Shown here one piece after another: positions 1,026 through 22,020 of a stretch of 39,851 bases of DNA (positions are counted from its first letter, which is position 1; each line of letters starts with the position of its first letter). The translations under genes were made by a program, and so were the position numbers. This stretch comes from Candidatus Binatia bacterium (GTDB lineage Bacteria; Vulcanimicrobiota; Vulcanimicrobiia; Vulcanimicrobiales; Vulcanimicrobiaceae): NCBI GenBank assembly GCA_035541935.1, contig DATKMJ010000059.1, positions 1-39,851 of the forward strand, given 5' to 3'. A model generated the notes under the pieces. That model searched no databases. It saw nothing but the letters and a program-made list of their open reading frames with translations, and had not been told where the DNA came from.

Positions 1026-1530
1026 CGTCACGCTCGTCGCCGGCGATTTCGCCTCGACGTTCTTCTATCACGTTCCGCAGCATCTTTGGTTCACGTTGCA
1101 TCTGCGAACGCATCACGATCGCCGCCGCTCGTACTTCGACCATGCCGTCGTCTCTACCGATCCCGCCGTGCTGCTCGACGGGTTCCTCGGCGCGGTCCCC
1201 TATCTCGTCGTCGCCGCGTTCGCCTGGCGACTCTCTTGGCCTGGAGTCCTGAGCGGGCTCGCGCTGGGCCAGCTCCACGTATGGTGGCGCCACACCTCCG
1301 ATCTGGGGTGGCACACGCCCGAATGGCTGAGAACCCTCCTCCGCCCCCTCGCGGTAGTACTGCCCGAGGACCACGATGGACACCACCGAAACCCCGACAT
1401 CGAGTTCGGCGACATCTTCCGCTTCTACGACCCGCCGGCTCGGGCGCTTCTGGCTTGGCTTGCTCCGACGAGCCGCAGAACCAGGAACGCAGGCCGGCGG
1501 GCGACGAGGAGGGTTCCGGCCAGAGCCTAA
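973..1530 (+). CDS. Fatty acid hydroxylase / CrtZ-like di-iron membrane protein
   Basis: A 185-residue membrane protein with the histidine clusters of the fatty acid hydroxylase superfamily. The first block is YHVPQH..LHLRTHH (about residues 32-47), then WWRH and GWH, and finally EDHDGHHRNP (about 136-145). These eight or so histidines would hold a di-iron centre at the cytoplasmic face that hydroxylates a lipid C-H bond. Hydrophobic stretches lie at about 10-27 and 70-100. The family includes sterol desaturases, fatty acid hydroxylases and CrtZ carotenoid hydroxylases; substrate cannot be told from sequence. Start alternatives are ATG 973 (a TATGCT box just upstream would make it nearly leaderless) and ATG 1003 behind a GAGG. 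It lies 12 bases before a glycolipid synthase gene, hinting at a membrane-lipid role. Confidence 0.75.
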   Translation: MQPHNEVAASMLFITALIVTLVAGDFASTFFYHVPQHLWFTLHLRTHHDRRRSYFDHAVVSTDPAVLLDGFLGAVPYLVVAAFAWRLSWPGVLSGLALGQLHVWWRHTSDLGWHTPEWLRTLLRPLAVVLPEDHDGHHRNPDIEFGDIFRFYDPPARALLAWLAPTSRRTRNAGRRATRRVPARA

Positions 1531-1542
1531 TCGGGAGAGCGT

Positions 1543-2739
1543 ATGAGCAAACGGGCGCTTCTGCTAATCTCGGATACGGGGGGAGGGCATCGGAGCGCCG
1601 CCAACGCCATCGCCGCCGCCCTGCAGGAGACCCCCACGCCCAACGCCTTCGAACCGCGGATCGAAGACGTCGCGGCCCATTGCGCCTTCCCGCTCACCCA
1701 GCTCGGCCTCGGCTACAGCATGGCCCTGCGCTACGCGCCCCCCGTCTACGGCGCGCTCTACCACGCCACGAACGGACGCCGCCGCTATCGAGCGCTCGTG
1801 CGCTTCTGCGAGCCGCTCTACCGCGAGCGTCTGCGCGACCTCTTCATTAGTTATCGGCCCGACGTGATCGTTTCGGTCCATCCGCTGCTCAACCACGCCG
1901 CGCTGCGCGCGAGGGACGATGCGGAGATGCACCACATCCCGGTCGTCACCGTCATCACCGACCTCGGGAAGGTCCACGAGTCGTGGCTCGTCCCGGAGGC
2001 CGACGCGGTCGTCGTGCCGGCGCGCGAAGTCTACCAGCGCGCGCTCTCGCGCGGCGTGCCGCCCTCGCGCCTGCGGATGCTCGGCCACCCGATCCACCCG
2101 AAGTTCGACGACGTGACCGGCAGCAAGAGCGACTTGCGCGCCCAGCTCAAACTCTCGCCGGATCTTCCGGCCGTCATGCTGATGGCCGGCGGCGAAGGCG
2201 GCGGCAAATTGCTCTCGACGGCGCTCGCGTTGGCGCGGGCACGCCTGCCGATCGAGCTCGTCGTCGTAAGCGGGCGCAACGAGCACCTCGAGCAGAAACT
2301 CACCGAGCTCTCGTCATCGCTGCCGACGCCGATGCACGTTCTTGGATTCACCGATAAGATTCCCGAGTATTTCCGCGCGGTCGACCTGCTCGTCACGAAG
2401 GCCGGGCCGGGGACGCTCGCCGAGGCAAACGCCGCGCAGCTTCCGGTCGTCGTCTACGACTACGTGCCCGGGCAGGAACGCGGCAACGTCGATTTCGTGC
2501 GGCACAACGGGCTGGGCGTCATCGCGCTGCACGGTTCGTCCTCGGTCGTCGCTGCGGTACGCACGCTGATCCGCGCGCCCGAACGCCTCGCCCAGATCCG
2601 AGAAAATCAGGAGATCGTCGCGCCGCGGCGCAGCTCGCGGCGAATCGCGGCGCTGATCGCATCCATCGCGCAGACCGGCACCATCCCAGCAGCCGACGAT
2701 TTCACGACGAGGACCCTGCAGGCGGCAGCCGCCGTTTAA
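1543..2739 (+). CDS. MGDG synthase / processive diacylglycerol glycosyltransferase family protein
   Basis: A 398-residue GT28-family glycosyltransferase. The N-terminal Rossmann half starts with LLLISDTGGGHRSAANAIAAAL, the hallmark of the MGDG synthase domain, and contains VHPLLNH and VVTVITDLGKVHESW. The C-terminal half holds the sugar-nucleotide site: LMAGGEGGGK, HVLGFTDKIPEYFRAVDLLVTKAGPGTLAEA and VVVYDYVPGQERGNVDF. Relatives transfer galactose or glucose from a UDP-sugar to diacylglycerol at the inner face of the membrane. Length is normal for the family. The ATG is preceded by GGGAGAG at good spacing. The gene follows the hydroxylase by 12 bases and precedes the STAND regulator by 4 bases, so the three probably form an operon. 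Exact sugar and acceptor are not predictable. Confidence 0.87.
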   Translation: MSKRALLLISDTGGGHRSAANAIAAALQETPTPNAFEPRIEDVAAHCAFPLTQLGLGYSMALRYAPPVYGALYHATNGRRRYRALVRFCEPLYRERLRDLFISYRPDVIVSVHPLLNHAALRARDDAEMHHIPVVTVITDLGKVHESWLVPEADAVVVPAREVYQRALSRGVPPSRLRMLGHPIHPKFDDVTGSKSDLRAQLKLSPDLPAVMLMAGGEGGGKLLSTALALARARLPIELVVVSGRNEHLEQKLTELSSSLPTPMHVLGFTDKIPEYFRAVDLLVTKAGPGTLAEANAAQLPVVVYDYVPGQERGNVDFVRHNGLGVIALHGSSSVVAAVRTLIRAPERLAQIRENQEIVAPRRSSRRIAALIASIAQTGTIPAADDFTTRTLQAAAAV

Positions 2740-21031: not shown

Positions 21032-21622
21032 ATGCCGTCGCAGGACTCGCGCTGGGGCTCGCTCGCCCGCCGGCCGTGGACGCCGTCGGAGCGCGCCATC
21101 GTCTGGCGCGGCCTCACGGGGCGCTTCGCGCTCGCGATCGAGCCGCTGATCGGCACGGTCGTCATGGCGCTGCTGACCTGGGGCATTCTCTACCGCGCGC
21201 AGCACGTCGCCGCCGATGCGACGCTGGCAAAGATCGCGTGGATCTTCGCGCTCGGCGCGATTGCGTTCGGCGGCTATTTCATCGCGGTGCTCGTCGCGCC
21301 GGTCGCCGCGTATCTGCAGACGTTCCGGCCGATCTATCTACTCGACGGCTACGTGCGCTACCGCGCTCCCGACGAACGCTCCCGCGCCGATGCCTGCGGC
21401 TACGCCGCCGCGCTCTTCGCGGATCGTTCGCTCGCGGCCGAGTGGGAGTGGTTGGGCCGGCGCCCGTTAGCCGACGCGACGATCCCCGCGCTCGTCGAGT
21501 TCTCGCTCTACGCGGGCATCCACAAGATCGACGGCAAGACGACCGGATTGCTCCCGGACGAAGCCATGCCGCTGCTCGCGATCGGCATCGCGACGAGGCA
21601 CGGAAGAACCGCCGACCTGTAG
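21032..21622 (+). CDS. Membrane protein of unknown function in heme A operon
   Basis: A 196-residue protein starting 15 bases after the MFS gene. Two hydrophobic segments (LIGTVVMALLTWGILY at about 39-54 and IAWIFALGAIAFGGYFIAVLVAPVAAYL at about 68-95) form a hairpin, followed by a cytoplasmic-looking C-terminal domain (YVRYRAPDERSRADACGYAAALFADRSLAAEWEWLG). I recognise no family. It is the last gene before the nested inverted repeat. Confidence 0.7.
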   Translation: MPSQDSRWGSLARRPWTPSERAIVWRGLTGRFALAIEPLIGTVVMALLTWGILYRAQHVAADATLAKIAWIFALGAIAFGGYFIAVLVAPVAAYLQTFRPIYLLDGYVRYRAPDERSRADACGYAAALFADRSLAAEWEWLGRRPLADATIPALVEFSLYAGIHKIDGKTTGLLPDEAMPLLAIGIATRHGRTADL

Positions 21623-21630
21623 GCTTTCGG

Positions 21631-21799
21631 TCGATTCTTCGGGCTGGCCGTAGCCGATGAGAAGCGTCTCAGCTTTTTCGGGCCAGCCACGGATGGCTGT
21701 TTCAAAGCTTGCTGGCCCGAAAAAGTGAGCGAGTAGGAGCGAACACGGATGTGAGCGACGGTCGTCTTCGAATCGGCTACGGCCACGCCGAAGAATCGA
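21631..21799. repeat. Nested inverted repeat (two stems) between convergent operons
   Basis: Outer arms at 21631-21658 and 21772-21799 match over 26 of 28 bases when one is reversed and complemented. Inner arms at 21673-21687 and 21711-21725 are 15-base perfect partners (CTTTTTCGGGCCAGC and its complement) with a 23-base loop. Short direct repeats (GTGAGCGA at 21725 and 21751; CACGGAT at 21688 and 21744) lie inside. The inner stem has A5/T5 tracts on both flanks, so it could end transcription from both operons. The outer arms are more than a terminator needs and resemble a palindromic repeat element. Reading frames across it look spurious. Confidence 0.8.
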
Positions 21800-21819
21800 T
21801 CGAATTCCAGTAGCGCGCT

Positions 21820-22020
21820 CTATGGATTGTTGTTGAGGGGCACGCGGACCGTCGTCATCGCGGGCCAGCGGTGTCCGTAGCCGGACATCGTCACGACGGC
21901 TCCGCCGATGATGAAGATGATCACGATCCCGGCGAGGGCGACGCGAACGAGGCTCGACGGAATGCCGCGGCTCTCGGGGACCTTCGAAAAATCGAGATAC
22001 TCGTCGTCGCGAACGATCAC
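21820..22020 (-). CDS. Small single-helix protein of the oxidase operon
   Basis: A 66-residue protein starting at GTG 22020, two bases after the previous stop, with GGGAG nine bases upstream. A soluble N-terminus (VRDDEYLDFSKVPESRG) precedes one membrane helix (SLVRVALAGIVIIFIIGGAVVTM) and a short C-terminal tail. It is the last gene of the cox operon. It might be a small accessory oxidase subunit; no family is recognised. Too short to be called by homology here, its support is the SD site, spacing and co-orientation. Confidence 0.65.
   Translation of the reverse strand: MIVRDDEYLDFSKVPESRGIPSSLVRVALAGIVIIFIIGGAVVTMSGYGHRWPAMTTVRVPLNNNP

Follow-up and report, generated by a model that had tools for sequence, protein, structure and literature searches.

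The window, by which we mean the whole stretch of 39,851 nt that was analysed, carries between its ctaA and cox genes one copy of a structured element that is unannotated and dispersed in Ca. Eremiobacterota. From its fold and covariation, its copy number, unit boundaries and location, the flips of its core and its match to the Rfam model RF01731, we consider it probable that the element is a divergent TwoAYGGAY-type RNA that has spread as a mobile repeat; as such it would be transcribed, would bind and titrate CsrA, and would possess a mechanism of mobility. The first-pass annotation had offered a structured RNA and a mobile palindromic element as separate candidates for this place, and both were borne out: covariation, tandem G.A pairs, an asymmetry between the strands and the alignment to TwoAYGGAY argue for the first, and a palindromic repeat that is dispersed and moves as a unit answers to the second. 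We hold that the two are one thing, and this form of TwoAYGGAY-kind element is known so far only in one order of Eremiobacterota.

A conserved fold between two convergent genes

The element begins 3 nt behind the stop codon of the 196-aa CDS and fills the gap between this gene and the convergent 66-aa CDS (Table 1). A nested inverted repeat had been described here from 21631 to 21799, with 28-base arms and a 113-base interior; the place was right, and the arms reach a few bases further. In our own inverted-repeat scan 30 of the 33 positions of each arm matched across an interior of 113 nt, and the repeat search gave 39-nt arms with 87% complementarity (21626-21664 / 21766-21804) together with the perfect 15-bp inner stem already noticed (21673-21687 / 21711-21725, 23-nt loop). 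One of two short direct repeats reported earlier is possibly TGAGCGA, which is repeated in and beside a third hairpin (21733-21763) that had been missed and is part of the element. The inverted repeat is far beyond chance: in our scan it is the only one with at least 20 matched pairs in the 39.9-kb window, and folding of both strands, a check proposed with the annotation, placed its energy 10.2 SD (+) and 9.5 SD (−) below dinucleotide shuffles, a value that 0 of 200 shuffles reached. The A5/T5 tracts of the inner stem are present as described, but their order is opposite to that of a rho-independent terminator, since both strands read 5'-CTTTTT...AAAAAG-3', so that the T5 tract lies 5' and the A5 tract 3', and transcripts of either strand lack a U tract after the stem (21673-21725). 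We therefore rejected a rho-independent terminator, and the simple bidirectional terminator considered earlier finds no support in this polarity.

Table 1. Features of the window copy and of its two neighbouring genes.
Feature	Position	Strand	Basis or remark
Whole element: private outer stem plus three-way-junction core	21626..21804	+	repeat search, folding, own scan
Outer stem, left arm (private sequence)	21626..21658	+	repeat search, inverted-repeat scan
Outer stem, right arm; 30/33 pairs	21772..21804	+	repeat search, inverted-repeat scan
Conserved core	21655..21774	+	covariance model R1, 107 bits, E 9.7e-23
Tandem G.A mismatch at the core base: G21659.A21771 / A21660.G21770	21659..21771	+	alignment A1
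Hairpin P3, long stem CTTTTTCGGGCCAGC / GCTGGCCCGAAAAAG plus its base	21665..21731	+	97.8% of cells paired
P3 apical hexaloop ACGGAT (A-N-GGA-N, CsrA-type)	21689..21694	+	GGA invariant, 23/23 A1 sequences
Hairpin P4 with conserved tandem G.A: G21737.A21758, A21738.G21757	21733..21763	+	alignment A1
P4 loop ACACGGATGT = ACANGGANGU, CsrA-type recognition sequence	21743..21752	+	sequence; consensus PMC7652899
Upstream CDS, 196 aa, without Pfam family	21032..21622	+	last of ctaA-ctaB-MFS-CDS
Convergent downstream CDS, 66 aa, without Pfam family	21820..22020	−	adjoins cox3, cox1, cox2 on the same strand

The core of about 120 nt is a three-way junction formed by the outer stem and the hairpins P3 and P4. 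In alignment A1, which holds 23 copies and is the source of covariance model R1, 24 of 39 pairs had changed on both sides, compared with 13.2 in shuffles (0 of 500 shuffles equalled it), and the covariation score was 0.329 compared with 0.134; every control in which the pairing was slid gave far lower covariation. Both-sided changes were found in 11 of the 16 pairs of P3. The loops of P3 and P4, of the form A(N)GGA(N), are kept although the stems change wholly: P4 stems run from GCCCACA/TGTGGGC to AAAAATTTCA/TGAAATTTTT below a constant loop, and the P4 loop contains GGA in 94 of 98 copies. The tandem at the base of P4 is similarly stable (G.A in 22/23 and A.G in 23/23 sequences of A1), and many copies have further tandem G.A pairs in P2 and higher in P4, with one more G.A pair above the conserved tandem in the P4 of the window. 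When the two strands of the copies were compared, the complementary strand had no GGA hairpin loop.

Dispersed copies, private arms and flipping cores

A single copy without conservation in relatives, together with transcription that stops only at the inner stem, would, according to the first-pass annotation, have reduced the feature to a terminator. The DNA search of the host and its relatives returned multiple, conserved copies, with partial ones elsewhere in its own genome (2.41 Mb, 71 contigs) and others in 13 of 60 relatives; those relatives that are named put the host in Candidatus Eremiobacterota. In the own genome, where copy number is about 10-14, model R1 gave 14 matches at E<=1, and it matched 59 of 148 relatives, with at least 24 matches in some of them, genome G023 included. 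By a tally of the R1 matches listed, the element occurs in 55 of 91 genomes of the family and in 4 of 4 of the sister family, whose copies score weakly with R1 and have the same plan with other P3 and P4 stems; the 53 genomes beyond these two families had no R1 match. Bradyrhizobium matches to the DNA pattern lack the fold and were rejected as elements, viral contigs had no match to that pattern, and the phage and plasmid collections had none to the element. The own-genome loci L083-L088 (52-69 bits) are of a GC-rich subtype in which P3 GACGCGAGCGCC...GGCGCGAGCGC replaces the T5/A5 stem, and they perhaps represent a second old lineage of the family. Whole or partial elements also occur as adjacent, oppositely oriented pairs, at L071:1324-1443(−) and 1501-1616(+), G000:C69:7907-8135 and G000:C37:7327-7552.

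A protein-binding site common to two operons of one pathway had also been suggested; copies lie at many other genome places, and none of the congeners with a readable gap has one at the window place, which argues against it. In these congeners the two stop codons are about 10-25 nt apart, with neither hairpin nor element between them. Since these gaps are short and empty, and since removal of the 179-bp element from the window leaves 18 nt between the stop codons, matching the congeners' intergenic size, the window copy is, as judged from the sequences compared, a whole-unit insertion in this lineage. Genome G004 (L198) has a 624-bp gap behind its orthologue of the 196-aa CDS, with another repeat (TGTCATCCTGAGGAGCGCGC ... 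CTCAGGATGACACA). Genome G013 has two copies that share 98.7% identity over 159 bp, bounded at the outer stem and flanked by unrelated sequence. Nearly all alignable copies of G080 and G023 are at orthologous positions, and no empty site was found among them. In the copies inspected by eye no target-site duplication was evident.

The sequence of the outer stem, about 20-35 bp long, is private to nearly every copy, and its pairing is kept. Beyond the core the private stem measures 31.1 +/- 3.6 bp in genus g7 (n=45) and, where traceable, a more variable 21.3 +/- 7.0 bp outside it. The DNA search found no further copy of the window arm in the own genome, so a likeness of this arm to coding DNA of two relatives (L019 and L020; gatB- and aminotransferase-like) is probably due to chance. 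Sequence information is strong for about 10 nt from the core, weak to about 26 nt and then absent, and the arms of genus g7 have a common consensus that fades; because information fades outward in this way, the arms appear to come from a common ancestral stem and to have drifted while paired. In orthologous copies of G080 and G023 the arms have changed on both sides and the core is nearly unchanged. Read on the GGA strand, the arms contain 60 G.T and 18 A.C pairs at equal penalties (p about 1e-6); of these, 23 and 3, respectively, come from co-directional copies that lie antisense to the gene they abut. Both kinds of pair would be equally frequent in a symmetric DNA palindrome, so the folding strand is the GGA strand, either as RNA or as single-stranded DNA.

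Private arms and a position behind stop codons could both be accounted for if units had inserted into the loops of ordinary terminator hairpins, the arms being host DNA. We give this very little credence: the congeners' gaps at the window site hold no hairpin to receive a unit, the g7 arms have their fading consensus, in G013 the unit has carried its arms along, and arms of this length occur in no other inverted repeat of the 822 kb formed by G023, G088 and the window. All inverted repeats with at least 30 matched pairs in these 822 kb are elements; three further inverted repeats, with 21-24 matches and short loops, are not.

For 98 copies the context was read from the gene calls of our own codon-usage gene finder: 44 lie between convergent genes (>E<), 28 (<E<) and 13 (>E>) between co-directional and 2 (<E>) between divergent ones, the rest being at contig ends or within a called gene, and in 75 of 96 copies the outer stem ends at most 25 nt from the 3' end of a gene. 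These contexts would suit a 3'-end device, a long hairpin that has no notable protein partner and that, between convergent genes, either halts transcription or shields the 3' ends of mRNAs. Such a role we find improbable, since the U tract is missing on both strands and the tract polarity is wrong, since a plain stem would make two GGA loops, tandem G.A pairs and a junction superfluous, and since most of the sampled sequence lacks such a hairpin despite many gene ends.

In 4 of 11 orthologous pairs of G080 and G023 (L177/L117, L180:8-190/L130:127-308, L181/L154 and L184/L170) the core is inverted relative to the arms and flanks, the flipped segment being about 100 nt between inverted arms of about 40 bp. 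Recombination or template switching between the arms could flip the core and homogenise the arms. Some of the flips are near the ends of draft contigs and are possibly in part assembly error. Two contigs (L182:1-393 and L183:1-600) open with inverted arms of 146 and 253 nt centred on an element, probably as foldback assembly artefacts. A cobalamin riboswitch (RF00174, 77.6 bits) lies at L122:6708-6897 on the − strand.

TwoAYGGAY likeness and the possible link with CsrA

The Rfam family TwoAYGGAY (RF01731, clan CL00106), a predicted CsrA-binding RNA, aligned end to end with the window copy in a permissive search, with model positions 1-168 over 21629-21801 on the same (+) strand and the same two-hairpin plan. 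Taken alone this match is weak, as its 23.4 bits (E 0.15) do not reach the curated cut-off of 43 bits, and animal and plant microRNA models fit the window stem equally well. The L075 copy scored 38.2 bits, and a copy in G099, the only one above the cut-off, scored 43.6 bits. Over 148 genomes RF01731 gave seven matches at E<=0.01, where about 1.5 are expected by chance, and all seven are on R1 elements and on the same strand. Known TwoAYGGAY RNAs have two hairpins with CsrA motifs, tandem GAs and an external stem of poor conservation (PMC4333381), and come from the human gut, Gammaproteobacteria and Clostridiales (PMC2864571); the elements, too, have tandem G.A pairs and an external stem that varies.

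CsrA recognises ANGGAN hexaloops, CAGGA(U/A/C)G and RUACARGGAUGU, and its L4 and R44 are critical residues (PMC7652899). The window copy presents GGA in two hairpin loops of ANGGAN type, at 21689-21694 and, in P4, at 21745-21750, as is expected of an RNA that serves as a CsrA sponge. A CsrA gene is found in the own genome (C18:44791-44943) and in 17 of 18 genomes of the host genus, and four family sequences that we read keep the RNA-binding residues L4, R6 and VHR. None of the 18 genus genomes has FliW, the protein antagonist of CsrA; G023 has FliW alongside many copies of the element. Across the family we found no association between presence of the element and CsrA, and in genus g10 (G026 and G082, with genomes 97% and 90% complete) elements are present and CsrA was not detected; G026 has FliW. 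In copies from outside g7 the GGA strand runs, as a rule, antisense to the one gene that they abut (<E< about 25, >E> 3-4), and sigma-70-like promoters are not enriched upstream of elements, which speaks against the RNA reading and makes the route of transcription puzzling.

These four observations, i.e. the missing co-variation with CsrA, genus g10, the antisense GGA strand and the missing promoter signal, make a folded single DNA strand serving a transposase the main rival. The element would then be REP/MITE-like miniature mobile DNA, of no benefit to the cell, in which the GGA loops and G.A pairs serve the transposase and not CsrA. The dispersal of the copies, the recent G013 duplicate bounded at the outer stem, the absence of the window copy from the congeners with a readable gap and an orientation independent of the neighbours' sense strand would all fit. 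We nevertheless think it unlikely, because G023 has almost every alignable G080 element at the orthologous position, the core is far more conserved than the arms, the ends hold no conserved sequence that a transposase could recognise, and the RNA family that is matched is known from other phyla. A REP/RAYT identity was rejected, as PF01797 (Y1) occurs in 0/18 genomes of the genus and 0/7 others of the family, and terminal inverted repeats common to copies, as in a MITE, were not found, arm sequence being common to copies up to about 10-25 nt from the core and private further out.

Proposed mechanism and comparison with known systems

In the favoured reading as a TwoAYGGAY-type RNA, the + strand of about 180 nt folds into a long outer stem, free in sequence and kept in its pairing, a three-way junction with tandem G.A pairs, and two hairpins with A(N)GGA(N) loops. 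Once transcribed, the element most likely binds a CsrA dimer via the two loops, which could titrate CsrA or recruit it locally, and the long stem would make for a stable transcript. Copies spread as discrete units into short gaps behind stop codons, mostly between convergent genes, with a core able to flip between its own arms. A further step, which we put forward tentatively and regard as rather doubtful, is a self-spreading CsrA sponge, with an outer 30 bp inherited as pairing, dozens of copies behind stop codons, core flips, and a copy number that sets free CsrA. If it held, the level of free CsrA would depend on copy number and not on a regulated sRNA gene.

The elements would form a deep TwoAYGGAY-type family outside the phyla named so far. 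Its dozens of natural variants retain the GGA loops and the G.A pairs and differ in most other respects, and they make the CsrA-sponge prediction directly testable. Outside Gammaproteobacteria, TwoAYGGAY as a CsrA sponge is predicted and, as far as the literature found says, unproven. Two usually separate subjects, regulatory sponge RNAs and intergenic repeats, would thereby be joined, and the private pair-preserving stems with their flipping core would offer a clean natural example of concerted evolution of a palindrome.

REP/REPIN and ERIC units are conserved in sequence, and REPINs are tied to a RAYT transposase. REP/REPIN and ERIC are short palindromic intergenic repeats in many copies (see PMC3116915, PMC2229807), and in this the element is alike, but its outer arms have no common sequence and a Y1 transposase is found in 0/25 family genomes searched. 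With CsrB/CsrC and RsmX/Y/Z it has in common the paired GGA hairpin loops and the matches to ANGGAN and CAGGAUG (PMC7652899), although these RNAs come from dedicated genes, one to a few in number, and CsrB has many GGA sites, where the dispersed element has two, both in loops. Compared with TwoAYGGAY, the P3 and P4 stem sequences differ, most copies score below the curated cut-off, and the elements are many per genome, beside gene 3' ends and with core flips; their host phylum is not among the groups named for TwoAYGGAY in the literature found (PMC2864571). It is nonetheless with TwoAYGGAY that the element shares a junction with two AYGGAY-type loop hairpins, the tandem G.A pairs, an external stem of low conservation, a similar 3' junction sequence and an alignment from end to end.
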